Assembly (NCBI GenBank): GCA_001003725.1
Contig: LCPR01000005.1
Location: forward strand, 82,891-146,890
Reading direction: 5' to 3'
DNA length: 64,000 bases
From: Candidatus Saccharibacteria bacterium GW2011_GWC2_48_9
GTDB taxonomy: Bacteria > Patescibacteriota > Saccharimonadia > Saccharimonadales > Saccharimonadaceae
Shown: piece after piece, positions 6,656 to 37,188 of the stretch
How the letters are laid out: each line of letters opens with the position of its first letter
Numbering within the stretch: position 1 is the first letter of the stretch
Notes under the pieces: model-generated
Told to the model about the DNA's origin: nothing
Database searches by the model: none
What the model saw: only the letters and a program-made list of their open reading frames with translations
Translations under genes and position numbers: made by a program

Positions 6656-6768
6656 AAAACCTCATAGTAGTGAGATGTAATCGCATTACTCACCAGTATA
6701 AACCGCACTTGGTTTGCCTGCAAGTCTGACGCTTGCTACTGCGCTCGATAACGCTTATACTAAAGGAC

Positions 6769-7221
6769 ATGAAGATATTCCTTGGTTCCGACCACAACGG
6801 CTTTTATATGAAAGAAAAAGTGTTTGCCTACCTGGCAAAACGCGGATATGACGTCGAAGATGTCGGTGACAAAGAACTTGACCCAGAGGATGATTTTCCT
6901 CACTTTGCTCAAATGGCTGCACTTAAAGTACTTGGCGAAGATGACGCGGTAGAACCCCGTGCGATACTGCTATGCGGTGGTGGCCAAGGTATGGCTATGG
7001 CTGCAAATCGTTTTCGAGGTATACGTGCAAGTGTTATCTGGGACGATTATGAGGCGAAAATGACTCGCAATGACAACGACAGTAATGTGCTGTGTTTGCC
7101 GTCACGAGTACTTGAAAAAGAAGAACACGAATGGAAAGCAATTATAGATGTATGGCTGGAAACGCCATTCGCCGCTGCTCCGCGCTATAAAAGACGTAAT
7201 GCACAGTTAGATGAGGTATAA
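6769..7221 (+). CDS. rpiB: ribose-5-phosphate isomerase B / LacAB family
   Basis: MKIFLGSDHNGFYMKEKV, LCGGGQGMAMAANRFRGIRA; start moved to ATG 6769. Confidence 0.88.
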   Translation: MKIFLGSDHNGFYMKEKVFAYLAKRGYDVEDVGDKELDPEDDFPHFAQMAALKVLGEDDAVEPRAILLCGGGQGMAMAANRFRGIRASVIWDDYEAKMTRNDNDSNVLCLPSRVLEKEEHEWKAIIDVWLETPFAAAPRYKRRNAQLDEV

Positions 7222-7223
7222 AA

Positions 7224-7871
7224 ATGAGTAGTATCGCACCAGCAATTTTGGCAGAAAATGCCGAATTATATAAACAAGCAATCGACAAGATACAGCCGTT
7301 TGCGCAACGTGTCCATATAGATGTGAGTGATGGAAATTTTGCTCCAACTTTTACTGTTGGACTTAATGAGATCTGGTGGCCGGAGGGTTGGGAGGTTGAT
7401 ATCCATGCGATGGTGGCACAGCCAACAGAGCATCTGCAAACACTCGTACAGCTCAAGCCAAGCATGGTGATTTTTCATGTCGAGGCGGACGTGGCGCAAT
7501 TACCTTCTGTACTCGCGACACTCAAGCAGTATGACATTAAGGCAGGCATATCACTATTGAGGTCGACGGTCCCTTCTTCTGTTGCCTCGCTTATTGAACA
7601 GGCGGATCATGTGATGGTGTTTACGGGCGAGTTAGGAAGATACGGTGGTACCGCAAATCTCATGCAACTAGAAAAAGTTCGACTTATTAAGCAAATTAAC
7701 CCAGATGTAGAAATCGGCTGGGACGGCGGTGTTAATTTGGATAACGCCTATACACTCACGCAAGGTGGCGTAAATGTGCTAAATGTGGGTGGAGCGATTC
7801 AGAAAGCGGAAGACGCGGGTGTTATGTACGCTAAGCTTGTCGACGAGATAAATAAACAGGGAGTATTGTAA
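7224..7871 (+). CDS. rpe: ribulose-phosphate 3-epimerase family protein
   Basis: VHIDVSDGNFAPTFTVG, GWDGGVNLDNAYTLTQGGVNVLNVGGAI. Confidence 0.85.
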   Translation: MSSIAPAILAENAELYKQAIDKIQPFAQRVHIDVSDGNFAPTFTVGLNEIWWPEGWEVDIHAMVAQPTEHLQTLVQLKPSMVIFHVEADVAQLPSVLATLKQYDIKAGISLLRSTVPSSVASLIEQADHVMVFTGELGRYGGTANLMQLEKVRLIKQINPDVEIGWDGGVNLDNAYTLTQGGVNVLNVGGAIQKAEDAGVMYAKLVDEINKQGVL

Positions 7872-8728
7872 TGGGTCAACAATTAACCGTCTCGCAGCTT
7901 GAGGCAAAAGCAAATACTATTAGGCAAGATATTATCACGATGCTTGAAGCCGCGGGTAGCGGACACAGTGCGGGGCCACTCGGTCTTTCTGATATTTTCG
8001 CAGCGCTTTATTTTGACATTATGAACTACGACGCTAAGAATCCTGATTGGGAAAAGCGCGACTATTTCTTTTTGAGTAACGGACATACAGTGCCGGTCCA
8101 GTATGCAGCTATGGCAGAAGCGGGCTTTTTCGAAAAAGCTGAATTACAAACACTTCGTAAGCTTGGTAGCCGCTTGCAGGGCCACCCTGAGCGCACGAAG
8201 CTACCTGGACTTGAAAATACCAGTGGGCCGCTGGGTAGCGGGTTAAGTCAGGCATCTGGTGTCGCGTATGCGCTGCAGTATCTCGACCGCGAACCGCACC
8301 GTTTTGTATATACGGTGATGGGCGACGGCGAGCTCAACGAGGGCAATATATGGGAGGCAGCCATGTTTGCTGGTAAATATAAGCTCGCTCAGCTCATTGG
8401 CTTTATCGACCGCAATAACATTCAGATTGATGGTAACACAGAAGACGTCATGCCGCTTGAAGACCTACGTGGTAAGTGGGAAAGTTTCGGTTGGCACGTG
8501 CAAGAGGTTGATGGTCATAATATCGAAAGTATCATTGACGCGGCAAGTATGGCTCGCGCTATTAGCAATAAGCCAAGTGTCATCATCGCGCACACCATAC
8601 CGGGCAAGGGTGTTGACTTTATGGAATACGACTATCACTGGCATGGTGCACCGCCAAACCATGAGCAGGCAAAAGAGGCGCTTACAAAGCTACGAACCCT
8701 CAATGGCAAGATAAAGGCAGGAGAATAA
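7871..8728 (+). CDS. transketolase, N-terminal (TPP-binding) subunit
   Basis: GSGHSAGPLGLSDIFAALYF, MGDGELNEGNIWEA; split form. Confidence 0.92.
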   Translation: MGQQLTVSQLEAKANTIRQDIITMLEAAGSGHSAGPLGLSDIFAALYFDIMNYDAKNPDWEKRDYFFLSNGHTVPVQYAAMAEAGFFEKAELQTLRKLGSRLQGHPERTKLPGLENTSGPLGSGLSQASGVAYALQYLDREPHRFVYTVMGDGELNEGNIWEAAMFAGKYKLAQLIGFIDRNNIQIDGNTEDVMPLEDLRGKWESFGWHVQEVDGHNIESIIDAASMARAISNKPSVIIAHTIPGKGVDFMEYDYHWHGAPPNHEQAKEALTKLRTLNGKIKAGE

Positions 8729-8730
8729 AT

Positions 8731-9729
8731 ATGAGTTCATATCCACTACGAGATGATATTTTTTCTGAAAAACCGACAGAAGAACCGACGCGAGCAGGAT
8801 TTGGGCGTGGCCTCAAAAAAGCCGGCGAAGCAGATGAGCGCGTGGTCGCATTGTGCGCCGACTTGACAGAGAGCACACAGATGCATCACTTTAAGGCGGC
8901 ATTCCCTGAACGCTATATAGAAATAGGCGTCGCTGAACAGAATCTTGTGACTGTCGCGAGCGGACTTGCTCGTGCAGGAAAGATACCGTTTACAAGTAGC
9001 TACGCTGCTTTTAGCCCCGGGCGAAACTGGGAACAAATCCGCACCACAATTACGCTTAACGAGCAGCCTGTAAAAATAATCGGGTCTCATGCGGGCGTGA
9101 GCGTAGGGCCGGACGGTGCGACGCATCAAATGCTTGAAGATATTGCCTTGATGCGAGTACTACCTCATATGGTTGTTGTTGTGCCGGGTGATAGCGTTGA
9201 GGCTGAAAAAGCTACTCTTGCAATCGCTCAGAACGGTGAACCAAGCTACCTACGACTCGCACGCGAGAAGACACCAGTATTTAGCACGGACGACTCTCCG
9301 TTTACAATAGGTACGGCGTACGTGCTGCGCGAAGGCCGCGACGTAACGCTCTGCGGCACCGGTACTATGACTTTTCAGCTATTAAAGGCGGCTCAGCTGC
9401 TAGAACAACAGGGTGTATCTGCTGAGGTTGTCCATGTGCCAACTGTGAAGCCGCTTGACGAAACTGTTATCTTGGCGAGCGCACGCAAGACCGGGCGTGT
9501 GGTGACGGCAGAGGAAGCGCAAATTGCAGCTGGATTTGGCGGTGCTGTAGCTGAACTTTTGAGTGAAAAACTACCAACACCTCTCAAGCGTATCGGTATG
9601 CTCGATCGTTTCGGTGAGTCCGGGCAGCCAAATGAGCTTCTTGATTACTTCGGCTTAAACGCAGAGAAGATGAAGCCTGTTATTCAAGAATTTATCAACG
9701 CAACATCGCAGTACCACAGGGAGGGCTAA
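8731..9729 (+). CDS. transketolase, C-terminal (pyrimidine-binding and C-terminal) subunit
   Basis: ERYIEIGVAEQNLVTVASGLA, GPDGATHQMLEDIALMR. Confidence 0.92.
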   Translation: MSSYPLRDDIFSEKPTEEPTRAGFGRGLKKAGEADERVVALCADLTESTQMHHFKAAFPERYIEIGVAEQNLVTVASGLARAGKIPFTSSYAAFSPGRNWEQIRTTITLNEQPVKIIGSHAGVSVGPDGATHQMLEDIALMRVLPHMVVVVPGDSVEAEKATLAIAQNGEPSYLRLAREKTPVFSTDDSPFTIGTAYVLREGRDVTLCGTGTMTFQLLKAAQLLEQQGVSAEVVHVPTVKPLDETVILASARKTGRVVTAEEAQIAAGFGGAVAELLSEKLPTPLKRIGMLDRFGESGQPNELLDYFGLNAEKMKPVIQEFINATSQYHREG

Positions 9730-9730
9730 T

Positions 9731-10642
9731 ATGGGTCAAACAATCGGTCAGATACGAGACAATACCACGCGTGCGCGACATCTGTATCAGCGCTCAAAAC
9801 AGCAGCACTTTGCTGTGGGCGCTTTTAATGTCGACAATCAGGAGACGATGATCGCTATTGCGCTTGCTGCACAGAAGCTAAATTCACCGGTACTTATCGA
9901 GGTGAGCGACGGCGAAGTGAAGGCAATCGGACTACACAACATTCGTGATATGGTTGACAACTATAAGCAAGAATATGGTATCGAGGTGTACTTAAACTTG
10001 GACCACAGTCCTTCTGTCGACGCGTGTAAGCGTGCAATAGATGCGGGTTACGAGTTTATACATATTGATATTTCGCAGGCAGATCACAACGCGAGCGAAG
10101 AAGAGATTATCGCGAAAACGAAAGAAGTAGTTGAATATGCAAAATTTACAGGTGCACTTATCGAAAGTGAGCCGCACTACTTCGGCGGTAGTAGTAATGT
10201 TCACAATGAAGATATCGACTACGAAGAAATCAAGAAAACATTCAGTACACCAGAGGGTGCGCGTAGCTTCACTGAGGCAACCGGAATTGATACACTCGCA
10301 GTTGCTATCGGTAATTTGCACGGAAAATACCCCGTACCGAAAGAACTCGATCTTGAGCTACTCGAGCGTATTCGCGAAGTCATAGGCTGCGGTATCAGCC
10401 TACATGGCGGTAGCGGTACGCCGCTACACTACTTCGAAGATGCTGCTCGTATAGGCGTCAGCAAGATCAATATTAATAGCGATATGCGCTACGTCTTTCG
10501 CAAAACCCTTGAAAAAGTGCTTGCCGATAACCCCGACGAATACGCGGTAGTTAAACTTATGCCCGAAGTGTATGGCGCAGTTCAGGCGGTGGTAGAAGAA
10601 AAGATTAAAGCATTCGGTAGTGCTGACAAAGCCATAGTGTAA
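9731..10642 (+). CDS. class II fructose-bisphosphate (ketose-bisphosphate) aldolase
   Basis: AVGAFNVDNQETMIA, YLNLDHSPSVD, LHGGSGTP, INSDMR. Confidence 0.9.
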   Translation: MGQTIGQIRDNTTRARHLYQRSKQQHFAVGAFNVDNQETMIAIALAAQKLNSPVLIEVSDGEVKAIGLHNIRDMVDNYKQEYGIEVYLNLDHSPSVDACKRAIDAGYEFIHIDISQADHNASEEEIIAKTKEVVEYAKFTGALIESEPHYFGGSSNVHNEDIDYEEIKKTFSTPEGARSFTEATGIDTLAVAIGNLHGKYPVPKELDLELLERIREVIGCGISLHGGSGTPLHYFEDAARIGVSKININSDMRYVFRKTLEKVLADNPDEYAVVKLMPEVYGAVQAVVEEKIKAFGSADKAIV

Positions 10643-10735: not shown

Positions 10736-11704
10736 ATGAACACACCAAAAATATTGGCTATTGGCAAAGCGACGCAAGACGTCTTCTTGAAAAGCGACGA
10801 GTTTAGTCCACAAATGGAAGGTAAGGTTGCGTATACGCACCTTCCGCTCGGTGTAAAAATGGAAGTAGAAGATATCGTGTTTGCGACTGGTGGAAACGCA
10901 AGTAATGTCGCCGTCACCTTGGCCCGTCAAGGCTTGCACAGCAGTTACATGTGGACGCTCGGGTATGACCCTGCATCGGAAACAGTGCTGCGCGACCTTG
11001 ATTCGGAGGGTGTAGATACATCTCACGTAGTGCGCCGCGACAAATACCGCGCGGGGTACTCTAACATTTTGATTGCTACAGATGGTGAGCGAACCATCCT
11101 CAATAACAAAGGCGTGTCTACAGATGCTCACGATGTGGATATTGATCTTGATGCAATAGCTGACGTAGATTGGGTGTACCCAACATCGCTAGCTCTGGGC
11201 GGTATTGATCTACTGCGCATCATTGTCGACCGAGCAGATGAAGCTGGGGTAAAGGTTATGCTCAACCCCGCTGGCCCGGAGCTTGCTGAGCCAAATAAGC
11301 TCAAGTCACTGCTCAGTAGTGTTGAGGTGCTGTGTGTCAATAAAGAAGAGATGCAAATGCTCGTTGACGGCGAATCGCTCGAAGAACTTGTGCGTCACGC
11401 GCTACACTATGTGCCAGTAGCAATTGTGAGCGACGGACCTCGTGGAGTAATTGCAAGTGATGGCAAAACTATTGTCACAGCGGGTATGTATGAAGACGTG
11501 CCGGTAGTGGATCGTACCGGCGCGGGAGACGCATTTGCGAGCGGATTCTTGAGTCAATGGGCTGCTGGTAAGAGTCTTCGTGACTCTGTGATATTTGCAA
11601 GTGCGAATTCAACATCTGTCGTGACGCAGTTCGGCGCAAAAGCCGGCATTTTGAGATCAAACGCGGATCTGCACGATATGCCTATCGAGGAAAAGCCGTT
11701 CTAA
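10736..11704 (+). CDS. PfkB family carbohydrate kinase
   Basis: VFATGGNASNVAVTLARQG and C-terminal DRTGAGDAFASGF. Confidence 0.9.
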   Translation: MNTPKILAIGKATQDVFLKSDEFSPQMEGKVAYTHLPLGVKMEVEDIVFATGGNASNVAVTLARQGLHSSYMWTLGYDPASETVLRDLDSEGVDTSHVVRRDKYRAGYSNILIATDGERTILNNKGVSTDAHDVDIDLDAIADVDWVYPTSLALGGIDLLRIIVDRADEAGVKVMLNPAGPELAEPNKLKSLLSSVEVLCVNKEEMQMLVDGESLEELVRHALHYVPVAIVSDGPRGVIASDGKTIVTAGMYEDVPVVDRTGAGDAFASGFLSQWAAGKSLRDSVIFASANSTSVVTQFGAKAGILRSNADLHDMPIEEKPF

Positions 11705-12162
11705 TGTCCAGAGCACTCATGACGCTACTTGGGCGACCTTCGGATAAGATGTTGGAAATATCTTTCGATGATTTAGAGAAGGCTACTGGTAAACAGGCTA
11801 TTGATGCACAATTGGTTGGCGATATACTCCATGCTGCGCATGGCACGATACGTGAACTGGGGCTAGAGGGAGACGTGACGGCCAAAGAGCTGTATCAAGC
11901 GCTGCGCGTTCACGAAGACATGCTCGATGATTCAACGGCATTTGTAGGCCTCGTGATAGACAAAGAGGTTGTTTCGTTGAATGCTCAAGATATCGCGCAC
12001 GATCATAGCGAAGCGGGGCGATTTGAGACGCGGAGTCTGGTGCATCTGCGCAAAAAACTGACCAGCGAAATAGTGAAACGATACACGGAGTGGGCTGCTC
12101 ATCCCGAGCTGCTCGAGCCAATTACGCGGCATATACAATTAACACACAAGGAGACAGTATGA
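11704..12162 (+). CDS. hypothetical protein
   Basis: 152-aa ORF overlapping both neighbours by a few bases (translational coupling); no recognised motif. Confidence 0.65.
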   Translation: MSRALMTLLGRPSDKMLEISFDDLEKATGKQAIDAQLVGDILHAAHGTIRELGLEGDVTAKELYQALRVHEDMLDDSTAFVGLVIDKEVVSLNAQDIAHDHSEAGRFETRSLVHLRKKLTSEIVKRYTEWAAHPELLEPITRHIQLTHKETV

Positions 12163-33091: not shown

Positions 33092-33814
33092 ATGAAACCA
33101 AATCTCAAAGTTCGCCGACTCGTTGTAGTACTTATCGTAGCGATAGTAAGCTTATCTTCCTTGGCATATGATATGGCCCAAGATGAATTGCTTGTAGTGC
33201 AGGAGCCACGTCATGCGCCCGATGCCCCAGCAAAGCAGGAGCTGTCGGATTCGCCCACCGCGCAGAGTATTTTAAGTAGTCTTGAGGTAAAGGGACGTGC
33301 ACCCAAAACAGGCTACGAGCGCGCGCAATTTAGTAGCGGATGGGGTAGGTTAGCCGAGTGCGATCTTCGCAATATTATATTGCGGCGTGATCTAGACGAC
33401 ACTCAGACGGATGACAACTGCAGGGTAGTGAGTGGTACGCTACAAGATCCATACACAGGTGCACAGATTGAGTTTACTAGGGGTAAGACGACGAGCGATG
33501 ATGTGCAGATTGATCATGTTGTAGCACTGAGTAATGCGTGGCAAACTGGCGCCCAGCAGCTGTCGAGCGAGCAGCGCCGTTCGTTTGCGAATGATCCGCT
33601 TAATCTTGTAGCTGTCGACGGCGCGGCAAATCAGCAAAAAAGCGATGGAGACGCGGCCACGTGGCTACCTGCAGACAAGTCGTTTCGCTGTCAGTACGTT
33701 GCCCGGCAGATTGCGGTAAAGCAAGCCTATTCTCTCTGGGTTACGTCTGCTGAAAAGTTGGCGATGGAAACGGTACTACGACGTTGTCCGGGTCAACAAA
33801 TTCCGGTTCAGTAA
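33092..33814 (+). CDS. secreted HNH endonuclease (DUF1524/GmrSD C-terminal-like)
   Basis: N-terminal signal/TM; IDHVVALSNAWQTGA...FANDPLNLVAVDGAANQQKSD, His-Me finger nuclease pattern. Confidence 0.8.
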   Translation: MKPNLKVRRLVVVLIVAIVSLSSLAYDMAQDELLVVQEPRHAPDAPAKQELSDSPTAQSILSSLEVKGRAPKTGYERAQFSSGWGRLAECDLRNIILRRDLDDTQTDDNCRVVSGTLQDPYTGAQIEFTRGKTTSDDVQIDHVVALSNAWQTGAQQLSSEQRRSFANDPLNLVAVDGAANQQKSDGDAATWLPADKSFRCQYVARQIAVKQAYSLWVTSAEKLAMETVLRRCPGQQIPVQ

Positions 33815-34352: not shown

Positions 34353-34443
34353 GGTACGAAGTATAGTGCGCTATATTGACATATGACAAAAATATATTTA
34401 TTATGATCAATATTAGTACTAATTGTTTAGAATTGATCAGATA

Positions 34444-35076
34444 ATGATAACTGTCACCGATAGAGTCCGCAGCTGGGTACAGAGAAATCCGTCGTACGCG
34501 CTACATATGCGCCATGGTATCATCAACTACTCATCGCTTGCGCGGCGTATTAAGCCGGACATTGAGCATGATGTGGGCGAGCGCGTATCAGTAGAGGCCA
34601 TTACTATCGCGCTCAACAGGGTGGCAAAAACCTTGACTGACCAAGACGCTGTAGATTACAGCGCGTACTTAGGGGAGGTTTCGGTGCAGTCTGGGCTGGG
34701 GGTTTTGACTATTCCTCAGTCTGAGACGAGTATGGATCAGTTCTTTACTGCGGCGAAGAGATTGCACGAGCAAAATGAATACATGGTCTACACGCGAGGT
34801 TTATGGTATACGGCGTTGATCGGACGTACCGAAGTAATCGATGAACTTGAGACAGCCCTCCAGGGGACTGTAACCTCAAGGGATATCGTAGGTATTACTG
34901 TAAAACTGCGGATAGGACACTTACCGGTTCCAGGAGTGTGTGCGTATGTGCTACAAATTCTCGCAAATCGAGGTATAAACCTTGTCGAGGTGACTTCGTC
35001 ACACAATGAGCTGACTGTGTTCGTGCATAATAACCGCACTAGCGAAGCGGTCGCCCTTCTCGTTATGAATGACTAG
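34444..35076 (+). CDS. ACT-domain-containing putative regulator
   Basis: Internal VGITVKLRIGHLPVPGVCAYVLQILANRGINLVEVTSSHNELTVFVHNN is ACT-like; N-terminal segment is possibly winged-helix; start at ATG 34444 preferred to TTG 34423. Confidence 0.65.
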   Translation: MITVTDRVRSWVQRNPSYALHMRHGIINYSSLARRIKPDIEHDVGERVSVEAITIALNRVAKTLTDQDAVDYSAYLGEVSVQSGLGVLTIPQSETSMDQFFTAAKRLHEQNEYMVYTRGLWYTALIGRTEVIDELETALQGTVTSRDIVGITVKLRIGHLPVPGVCAYVLQILANRGINLVEVTSSHNELTVFVHNNRTSEAVALLVMND

Positions 35077-37082
35077 AATATTGTTTTAATAGAATCTTGC
35101 TGAATAGTCGCGTTGCTATTGGCTTGAACGAGTTTTTTAAACAGGTCCTGTGCATGTGACAGGTTCTCGGACTTACCGCTCCATGCTTGGATAACGGGCT
35201 CTTGTAGCGCGCGTGAATAGCTAAATGTGATTGGCCAGGCCTGCGCACCCTTGTTGGTGATAGCTTGCAGGTTATTCGTAGCCTGCAGTGGTTCTTGGCC
35301 ACCTGACAAGAATACGATTCCTGCGAGGTCGTGTGGAACATGGTGAGAGAAGACGTCTACCGTGGCCACCGCAACTGCTTCGGGCGATGACTGAGGCTGC
35401 TTGCTGCCAGCCAGTACCATACTGGTCTTGAGTAGCATTGCTTTTCGATGTACGCCAAGGAGTGCAAGCTCTTCAAACAGTGCATCGAGCACACGAGAGC
35501 TTACCGCTTTGGCGCGCTCTATGGTGAAATCACCTTCATGAACAATCTCTGGTTCAACAATCGGCACGATGCCGGCGTTTTGACAATCGAGCGCGTAGCG
35601 GGCAAGAGCATGCACGTTTGCTGCTATTGCCGCATCGCTCGGCAGAGTATCGGTTACGGTAAATGCTGCTCTCCATTTTGCAAAGCGAATGCCCATAGCG
35701 TAATATTCGGCGAGTCGCTCTGGTAGCCCGTCGAGTCCACTGGTGACTCCTTCGCCCTCAAAGCCCGGAAGTGGCACGATGCCTTTGTCGACTTTTACGC
35801 CAGGGATAATACCACGTGACTGTAGGAGCTCCGGAAACGGTGTGCCGTCGTCAGCTTTTTGCCGTGCTGTCTCGTCGAATAGAATAACGCCGCTGAGGTG
35901 GGTCTCGATACCAGGTGAGGTAAAGAAAAGCTGTCGGTATGTGCGACGAACCTCTTCGCTGTCGTCGATGCCGTATTGTTCGAATCGCTTGTGGATACTG
36001 CCACCGCTTTCATCGGCTGCAAATATTCCCTTGGGGTTCTCAACAAGCGATTGAGCAATTTCTTCGGGTGACTGCTCCGAAGAGCCAGATATGACAGTGG
36101 GAATATATTCTGCTGGAGCGTCTGCCAGAAGTTGCAAGATGTCATCCTTACTGAGTAGGCCTGCCTGGGCGCCAAGATGCTGACACACATTCATGCTGTT
36201 GATAGGTGCCCAGCTAAGGGCGGTCTCAAGACTCTCACCCTGAGCGAGAGCGGTTGTTATGGTTGAAGCAAATGCGTCACCGGCTCCCGTCCTGTCGAGT
36301 GGAGGCTTAGGATCAGGGTAGTTGGGGATGGAGATGATTTTCTTGCCATCTGAAGCATATGAGCCATTTGGGCCATCAGTTATGACTACGACCTCCGGCC
36401 CAAGATTGTGGAGCCCATCGAACAAGTCTTCGAGATTCTCTAGCGCGCGCCCAGTCACGTCAGCAGCCTCTTCTTTGTTCATACATACCATGTGTGAACG
36501 TGCGTACACCTCAGCCAGTTTTTCTGCACCCCATTTGAAATGGAATGTTCCAGGTTGAAACACAAGTTTTGTATCTGGGTGTTTGCCAAGATACTCGAGA
36601 AGTTCCATGTGAAGCTGCCAAGAGGCGCCATCGAGGGCACTAAGATAAATCCATTCGGGCACTTCATTCGGTTCTTGCCAGGTATAGTCGTACTTTTCAT
36701 TCTTAACTAGGATAGTTCGTTCTGCGCCGTATCGTAGGACATACCAGTAATTTGACTTTTCCCCTTCTGCGATTGAGATAGTCGATGTGTCGACGTGCTG
36801 CTCCTTAAGGTAGCCAAGCATATCTTGGCCAGGAGTGTCGTCGCCCATATACGCCATGAGGCCAGCATTAGCGCCTAGACGGGAGAATGCCACTGCTGCA
36901 TTAGGCGAGGGGCCGACCGCTTGCACGATATCAACATGATCATATGGCGGTTTGGTGCCGAAAGGGAGGATGAGTTTTTTATTGCCGTGTTCATCTGTAA
37001 TTACTTCGGCTTCGTCGTCTTTGAGCTTAATAAATGCATCGGTCACGATATCACCAATCGCCAATATATACGGTTTGTGCAT
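35073..37082 (-). CDS. PfkB family sugar kinase fused to class I fructose-bisphosphate aldolase
   Basis: Residues ~1-335 PfkB (DRTGAGDAFAS); residues ~345-669 class I FBA (GIFAADESGGSIHKRFEQYGID, GVILFDETARQ, GIVPIVEPEIVHEGDF, MLLKTSMVLAG, VFLSGGQEPLQATNNLQAI). Confidence 0.9.
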   Translation of the reverse strand: MHKPYILAIGDIVTDAFIKLKDDEAEVITDEHGNKKLILPFGTKPPYDHVDIVQAVGPSPNAAVAFSRLGANAGLMAYMGDDTPGQDMLGYLKEQHVDTSTISIAEGEKSNYWYVLRYGAERTILVKNEKYDYTWQEPNEVPEWIYLSALDGASWQLHMELLEYLGKHPDTKLVFQPGTFHFKWGAEKLAEVYARSHMVCMNKEEAADVTGRALENLEDLFDGLHNLGPEVVVITDGPNGSYASDGKKIISIPNYPDPKPPLDRTGAGDAFASTITTALAQGESLETALSWAPINSMNVCQHLGAQAGLLSKDDILQLLADAPAEYIPTVISGSSEQSPEEIAQSLVENPKGIFAADESGGSIHKRFEQYGIDDSEEVRRTYRQLFFTSPGIETHLSGVILFDETARQKADDGTPFPELLQSRGIIPGVKVDKGIVPLPGFEGEGVTSGLDGLPERLAEYYAMGIRFAKWRAAFTVTDTLPSDAAIAANVHALARYALDCQNAGIVPIVEPEIVHEGDFTIERAKAVSSRVLDALFEELALLGVHRKAMLLKTSMVLAGSKQPQSSPEAVAVATVDVFSHHVPHDLAGIVFLSGGQEPLQATNNLQAITNKGAQAWPITFSYSRALQEPVIQAWSGKSENLSHAQDLFKKLVQANSNATIQQDSIKTIF

Positions 37083-37188
37083 TGAGTCCCACCTCCTAGA
37101 GTGTTGCTAATTTCTTTTATAGCTATGGTATCACGCTTGTGGCAATAAATAAACAAAGGCAAGCAGTATGTGGTCAACGCATTAGTGT

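Follow-up and report, generated by a model that had tools for sequence, protein, structure and literature searches.

A PfkB-type sugar kinase fused to a class I fructose-bisphosphate aldolase in Saccharibacteria, a candidate bifunctional enzyme for products of transketolase

The window, the whole stretch of 64,000 nucleotides analyzed here, originates from a member of the Saccharibacteria, which are ultra-small bacteria, with a genome of 1.07 Mb. Its minus strand carries at positions 35073 to 37082 a gene for a 669-aa fusion of a PfkB-type sugar kinase with a class I fructose-bisphosphate aldolase (FBA). A previous sequence-only reading had located the open reading frame at exactly these positions, but the strand is the minus strand, and a plus-strand reading of the region is ruled out by stops throughout. 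The AGGAGG at 37092 to 37097 (minus strand), 9 nt upstream of the ATG, is a strong ribosome-binding site. The kinase domain comprises residues 1 to 328 (36099 to 37082, from PF00294 of Pfam and the fold model) and the aldolase domain residues 339 to 669 (35076 to 36068, from Pfam, NCBIfam, and alignment), connected by a short linker of residues 329 to 338 (36069 to 36098, which contains no start codon), all on the minus strand. On the plus strand, a gene for a 217-aa DUF7523/ACT-domain protein (34423 to 35076) and the fusion gene share 4 bases at their 3' ends, and two congeners keep the gene, too. Next to the fusion, relatives also conserve a protein of 240 aa (33092 to 33814, plus strand) that has a GmrSD C-terminal/HNH nuclease domain and, apparently, a signal sequence at its N terminus.

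A search for the same fusion elsewhere, as proposed by the sequence-only reading, identified a whole-length fusion in each of the four genomes that make up the genus (81 to 83% identity) and a partly decayed one of 54% identity in a genome from another genus (G034). Neighbors common to these fusions are NusA and the genes for the HNH nuclease and an aminopeptidase. No stop or frameshift separates the domains, a possibility that had been raised before, and the three congeners hold the same unbroken frame. In four of five homologues, the 45 codons that precede AADES, a motif of the aldolase, contain no in-frame ATG, GTG, or TTG, and a TTG at codon 316 is the only such candidate in this span of the window fusion; due to this lack of a plausible internal start, it is unlikely that the aldolase half is made separately. 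Within the genus, dN was 0.08 to 0.11 for the kinase and 0.14 to 0.17 for the aldolase, with synonymous sites near saturation (Nei-Gojobori), which indicates that both halves are under purifying selection, the kinase half being the more conserved one. An artifact of assembly or gene calling, or a fused frame yielding two proteins, might be considered because some of the assemblies are drafts, and nothing else was found in favor of it. The frame shared by four congeneric genomes and a related genus, the conserved neighborhood, the selection, the absence of an internal start near the aldolase boundary, and the predominance of frames of 590 to 700 aa among the listed class I aldolase matches of the family (f1) rule it out, and its probability is negligible. 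A PF00274 match was present in 218 of the 394 genomes of this family, mostly from two genera. Among plasmid records, no match covered 80% of the fusion protein, and the best of the matches listed hit the aldolase half only.

The aldolase half agrees with the earlier claim of a full class I enzyme. PF00274 (Glycolytic, class I FBA) matches residues 340 to 660 with an E value of 2e-112, and the NCBIfam equivalog for class I FBA, NF033379, gives 421.8 bits, over its cut-off of 250. The Schiff-base Lys552 (35427 to 35429, minus strand) aligns with K229 of rabbit aldolase, and D357, K430, K469, R471, E510, E512, S593, and R624 align with D33, K107, K146, R148, E187, E189, S271, and R303 of the rabbit muscle enzyme, respectively, so that all catalytic residues checked are in place. 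The equivalog score, the Schiff-base lysine, and the acid/base residues together assign the domain to the class I FBAs. Structure prediction, which had also been proposed, modeled both halves confidently (AlphaFold2). The whole chain reached a pLDDT of 89.6, with a pTM of 0.60 that leaves the mutual placement of the halves open, and comparison of the aldolase with solved structures of class I FBAs gave TM-scores of 0.86 to 0.94, normalized to the length of the target.

The kinase half belongs to the PfkB/ribokinase-like kinases, with PF00294 at residues 59 to 307 (E value of 3e-35, 122 bits versus a cut-off of 25.8) and the GAGD motif. The catalytic aspartate, whose loss on alignment would have counted against the sequence-only reading, is present: DRTGAGD at residues 263 to 269 (36276 to 36296, minus strand) supplies the ATP anion hole and the catalytic Asp269, and the other PfkB motifs, N61 and N202xxE205, are intact as well. 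GAGD, N202, and E205 are kept in all 62 related intact kinases. K44 (36951 to 36953, minus strand, from the alignment) is invariant in these 62 kinases and in 31 of 31 paralogues, is missing from decayed copies, and aligns with K27 of Escherichia coli PfkB (Pfk-2); ribokinase and KDG kinase have no equivalent. A search of the literature for a paper on the fructose-6-phosphate (F6P) contacts of Pfk-2 found none, so the correspondence of K44 and K27 derives from the alignment, and it may be taken as weak evidence for the explanation preferred below. No kinase equivalog of NCBIfam passes its cut-off. The best scores are those of ribokinase and IolC, 6-phosphofructokinase II (PRK10294) gives 18.2 bits versus a cut-off of 353, and the 1-phosphofructokinase (1-PFK) score is far under its cut-off. 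An AlphaFold2 model of the kinase alone (pLDDT of 94.3) matches ribokinases with an E value of about 1e-22 and has the ribokinase-like fold, and the closest solved folds are ribokinase, a nucleoside kinase, and the sulfofructose kinase YihV at 16 to 21% identity, not Pfk-2. These nearest structures yielded nothing specific for the identification of a substrate. The specificity of a PfkB kinase is not readable from its sequence, and the substrates proposed below are derived from the context of the genes.

About 24 kb away from the fusion gene, a pentose phosphate operon is located on the plus strand of the window. It starts with the ribose-5-phosphate isomerase RpiB (6733 to 7221, PF02502), followed by the ribulose-phosphate 3-epimerase Rpe (7224 to 7871, PF00834), a split transketolase (7871 to 9729, N part 7871 to 8728 and C part 8731 to 9729; PF00456, PF02779, and PF02780), a class II FBA (9731 to 10642, PF01116), a second PfkB kinase, K2, with 34% identity to the fused kinase (10736 to 11704, PF00294), and a 152-aa protein (11704 to 12162) without a Pfam family above cut-off. 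Since the class II FBA adjoins a second PfkB kinase, the fusion is neither the sole aldolase nor the sole kinase candidate. By homology, the 152-aa protein corresponds to the N-terminal extension of about 170 aa that the orthologous kinase of related genera (54 to 69% identity) carries instead of an aldolase. The operon of these genera has the order RpiB-Rpe-TktN-TktC-FBA(II)-K2-[extension::kinase]. Because the operon in the window ends in a free homologue of the extension, the kinase seems to have parted from a former partner and joined the class I aldolase at a distant site, a sequence of steps that we infer from the gene orders, and the 152-aa protein is probably the part left behind.

The partnership with an aldolase extends beyond the fusion, and orthologues of the kinase exist across the Patescibacteria, mostly next to an aldolase gene. 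Elsewhere in the order, other families have the kinase unfused and adjoining a class II FBA, and 74 of the 78 class II FBA genes in Saccharimonadales have, at a distance of at most 1.5 kb and on the same strand, a PfkB kinase of the fused-kinase group (K1) or of the K2 group. Among the Parcubacteria, the orthologous kinase (42 to 49% identity) faces a class I FBA in head-to-head orientation at three loci (L074, L082, and L084) and is beside a different class II FBA-like gene (30 to 37%) at others (L072, L075, L078, L079, L081, L083, L085, L086, and L090 to L092), and these pairs are often accompanied by transketolase, Rpe, and RpiB. The partners being different types of aldolase, the kinase seems to follow the reaction and not a single aldolase family. 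Several further arrangements were observed. In one genome (G081, L038), a class I FBA at 1438 to 2508 replaces the class II FBA between the transketolase C part and K2, which is a swap of unrelated aldolases at the same operon site. A diverged class I-type aldolase of 252 to 314 aa with a weak PF00274 match exists in several relatives, for instance at L044 (78 to 1043) and L048 (205 to 1155), both on the plus strand and, as judged by eye, near a fructose-1,6-bisphosphatase-like open reading frame. Repeated or broken FBA and K2 frames at L099 (2020 to 7622, record UBA6025) are perhaps assembly errors.

The sequence-only reading had seen no canonical PfkA in the window, and this holds for the whole host genome (PF00365) and for 98 of the 101 genomes of the set. 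Transaldolase (PF00923) is missing from the host genome as well and from 92 of the 101 genomes, and transketolase, Rpe, RpiB, the class II FBA, and an isomerase of the PGI/PMI type (PF10432) are present in the host. All 54 genomes with the intact kinase have transketolase and none of the 15 genomes without transketolase has the intact kinase, counts that ignore shared descent; the presence of K2 shows no such link. Transketolase without transaldolase or a fused-type kinase occurs in 28 relatives, and since 27 of these have only K2, this second kinase may do the same job. A comparison of PGI has little weight because the isomerase types differ between genomes (PF00342 versus PF10432).

The origin of the fusion was addressed with a tree of aldolases (81 rows). 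Every fused aldolase, together with the bare class I aldolase of a genome without transketolase (G055), falls into a single clade (100/99) that excludes the aldolases of other Patescibacteria. Within it, the intact fusions form a branch of their own (100/98), and the grouping of the decayed copies as one clade reaches a support of only 92/62. This tree would be explained by one fusion event, after which the kinase decayed in several genera and was lost entirely from G055, an order of events that is tentative. With the fused aldolases in one clade, independent fusions in different genera are unnecessary, and a fusion ancient to all Patescibacteria is ruled out, as class I FBAs outside the family are found alone in frames of about 290 to 405 aa.

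Decay was assessed in 35 PfkB::aldolase proteins from other genera. With the K1 profile, 34 of the N-terminal domains scored more than 20 bits, up to 62, compared to no more than 20 bits with the K2 profile and 3 bits with the E. coli set, and judged by these profiles the decayed domain is a derivative of the K1 group. None of the 35 keeps Asp269, N61, or GAGD, which are kept in all 62 intact kinases. In close pairs, dN/dS of the decayed domain was about 0.02 to 0.19 (Nei-Gojobori; approximate, with many high dS values), which indicates that the domain is kept by selection, and it evolves faster than its aldolase. The kinase of G034 shares only about 41% identity with the other ones, compared to 64 to 67% for its aldolase, and has lost K44, R122, and E205 with GAGD retained; by these residues, this fusion is a transitional form between an active and a dead kinase. 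The dead-kinase fusions are therefore of interest as a natural series from an active enzyme via the intermediate G034 to a retained pseudoenzyme. Within 1.5 kb on each side, the neighbors of decayed fusions are unlike those of the intact fusion. All six dead-kinase genomes in the 101-genome set have no transketolase and kept the aldolase, a gene of the PGI family remains in five of the six, and K2 adjoins Rpe in these genomes. One genome, G005 (L031 and L049), combines a dead-kinase fusion with canonical PfkA and is one of the three genomes of the set with PfkA.

The explanation that fits best, and that is considered probable although far from certain, is a bifunctional enzyme in which the kinase phosphorylates a product of transketolase and the fused aldolase cleaves the resulting bisphosphate. 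The PfkB-fold domain would use ATP to phosphorylate C1 of a ketose phosphate that transketolase provides, sedoheptulose-7-phosphate (S7P) and/or F6P, neither of which needs to exclude the other. The class I aldolase would then split the 1,7-bisphosphate into dihydroxyacetone phosphate (DHAP) and erythrose-4-phosphate or the 1,6-bisphosphate into DHAP and glyceraldehyde-3-phosphate, and the enzyme would stand in for both phosphofructokinase and transaldolase. It may have originated when the kinase of the transketolase/aldolase cluster shed its N-terminal partner of about 150 aa before joining the aldolase. Gene context supports the view that the product of the kinase is what the fused aldolase cleaves; the substrates, the use of ATP, the order of events, and a direct hand-over between the active sites are what we infer from the data above. 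Because the kinase tracks transketolase and transaldolase is missing, a role in sedoheptulose-bisphosphate (SBP) metabolism is suggested instead of or besides one in glycolysis. The SBP pathway is a transaldolase-free non-oxidative pentose phosphate pathway, and the host has its set in terms of gene content: transketolase, kinase, and FBA without transaldolase. In place of transaldolase, cellulolytic clostridia, Entamoeba, and an E. coli talAB mutant use phosphofructokinase and FBA with SBP as the intermediate, and since the clostridial phosphofructokinases accept both S7P and F6P, F6P may also be a substrate of the fused kinase (PMC7029132). A more specific version, an S7P/F6P 1-kinase::bisphosphate aldolase whose kinase half became a selected non-catalytic pseudokinase after the loss of transketolase in relatives, is put forward more tentatively; the pseudokinase may act on the aldolase, for example, in regulation or assembly.

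Alternatively, the fusion may couple consecutive steps of glycolysis only, as an F6P-specific 6-phosphofructokinase joined to FBA. This was the proposal of the sequence-only reading, of which the architecture has stood, and the F6P-specific kinase is possible but incomplete as an explanation, given that the kinase tracks transketolase. The absence of PfkA from the host and nearly all of the set, the FBA as partner, the PGI/PMI gene of the host, and the FBA-adjacent, glucose-induced PfkB proposed as the missing phosphofructokinase of Nanosynbacter lyticus (PMC12815258) agree with it. A glycolytic phosphofructokinase, however, would be expected to persist in the dead-kinase genomes, where the kinase decayed after the loss of transketolase while the aldolase and mostly the PGI-family gene remained, and the gene clusters of the kinase include transketolase, Rpe, and RpiB, which leaves this alternative rather unlikely. 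Loss of the kinase with transketolase and not with the aldolase is expected if it phosphorylates a transketolase product. Still less probable is a kinase for a free sugar or another substrate, such as ribose, ribulose, tagatose-6-phosphate, fructose-1-phosphate, or a deoxy sugar, with the aldolase in a different branch and the fusion serving shared expression or stability. The nearest folds and the best, albeit sub-threshold, NCBIfam scores of the kinase would fit such a substrate, but not its repeated partnership with different FBP aldolases, its strict co-occurrence with transketolase, or the canonical class I FBA, over its NCBIfam cut-off, to which it is fused. The bifunctional enzyme acting on transketolase products remains the preferred explanation. 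In the sugar use of these bacteria, the textbook form of the bypass requires transaldolase, which most genomes of the set lack. For this missing step, a kinase linked to FBP aldolase by fusion and by recurrent gene pairing is a direct candidate, and the question can be tested on one purified protein.

Compared to known enzymes, the fusion shares with the class I FBAs of PF00274 and NF033379 the whole domain and every catalytic residue checked, and adds the N-terminal kinase domain. With E. coli Pfk-2 and 1-PFK (FruK) it has the PfkB fold, the GAGD aspartate, and NxxE in common, and the lysine K44 with Pfk-2, but it belongs to another subfamily by its NCBIfam scores and has DRTGAGD where Pfk-2 has STVGAGD. 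According to their family names, NF047869 (myo_kin_aldol) and NF041633 (trifunc_aldol) also join a PfkB-type kinase to an aldolase of the same pathway; they use other aldolase families and sugars in inositol and KDPG metabolism, and the window protein reaches 16.9 versus 600 bits and 24.4 versus 700 bits with them, respectively. Plant FLN1 and FLN2, PfkB-type proteins in a complex with a perhaps non-catalytic role, are a loose precedent for the decayed kinases, but they are part of the plastid RNA polymerase complex and not fused to a metabolic enzyme (PMC3409070). The SBP pathway of cellulolytic clostridia and Entamoeba likewise replaces transaldolase by phosphofructokinase and FBA via sedoheptulose-1,7-bisphosphate, with a PPi-dependent kinase of the PfkA superfamily as a separate protein (PMC7029132), whereas the use of ATP by the window kinase is presumed from its fold. 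In N. lyticus TM7x, a Saccharibacterium without PfkA, the putative PfkB-type phosphofructokinase TM7x_02415 adjoins the FBA TM7x_02420 in an operon, but as separate genes with no fusion described (PMC12815258). Among open-access papers, none was found that describes a fusion of PfkB with class I FBA or the relatives with a dead kinase. Kinase::aldolase fusions of other pathways are already known, a PfkB-type phosphofructokinase beside FBA has been proposed for N. lyticus (PMC12815258), and the PfkB::class I FBA fusion would be, within the open-access literature, a new form of this association.
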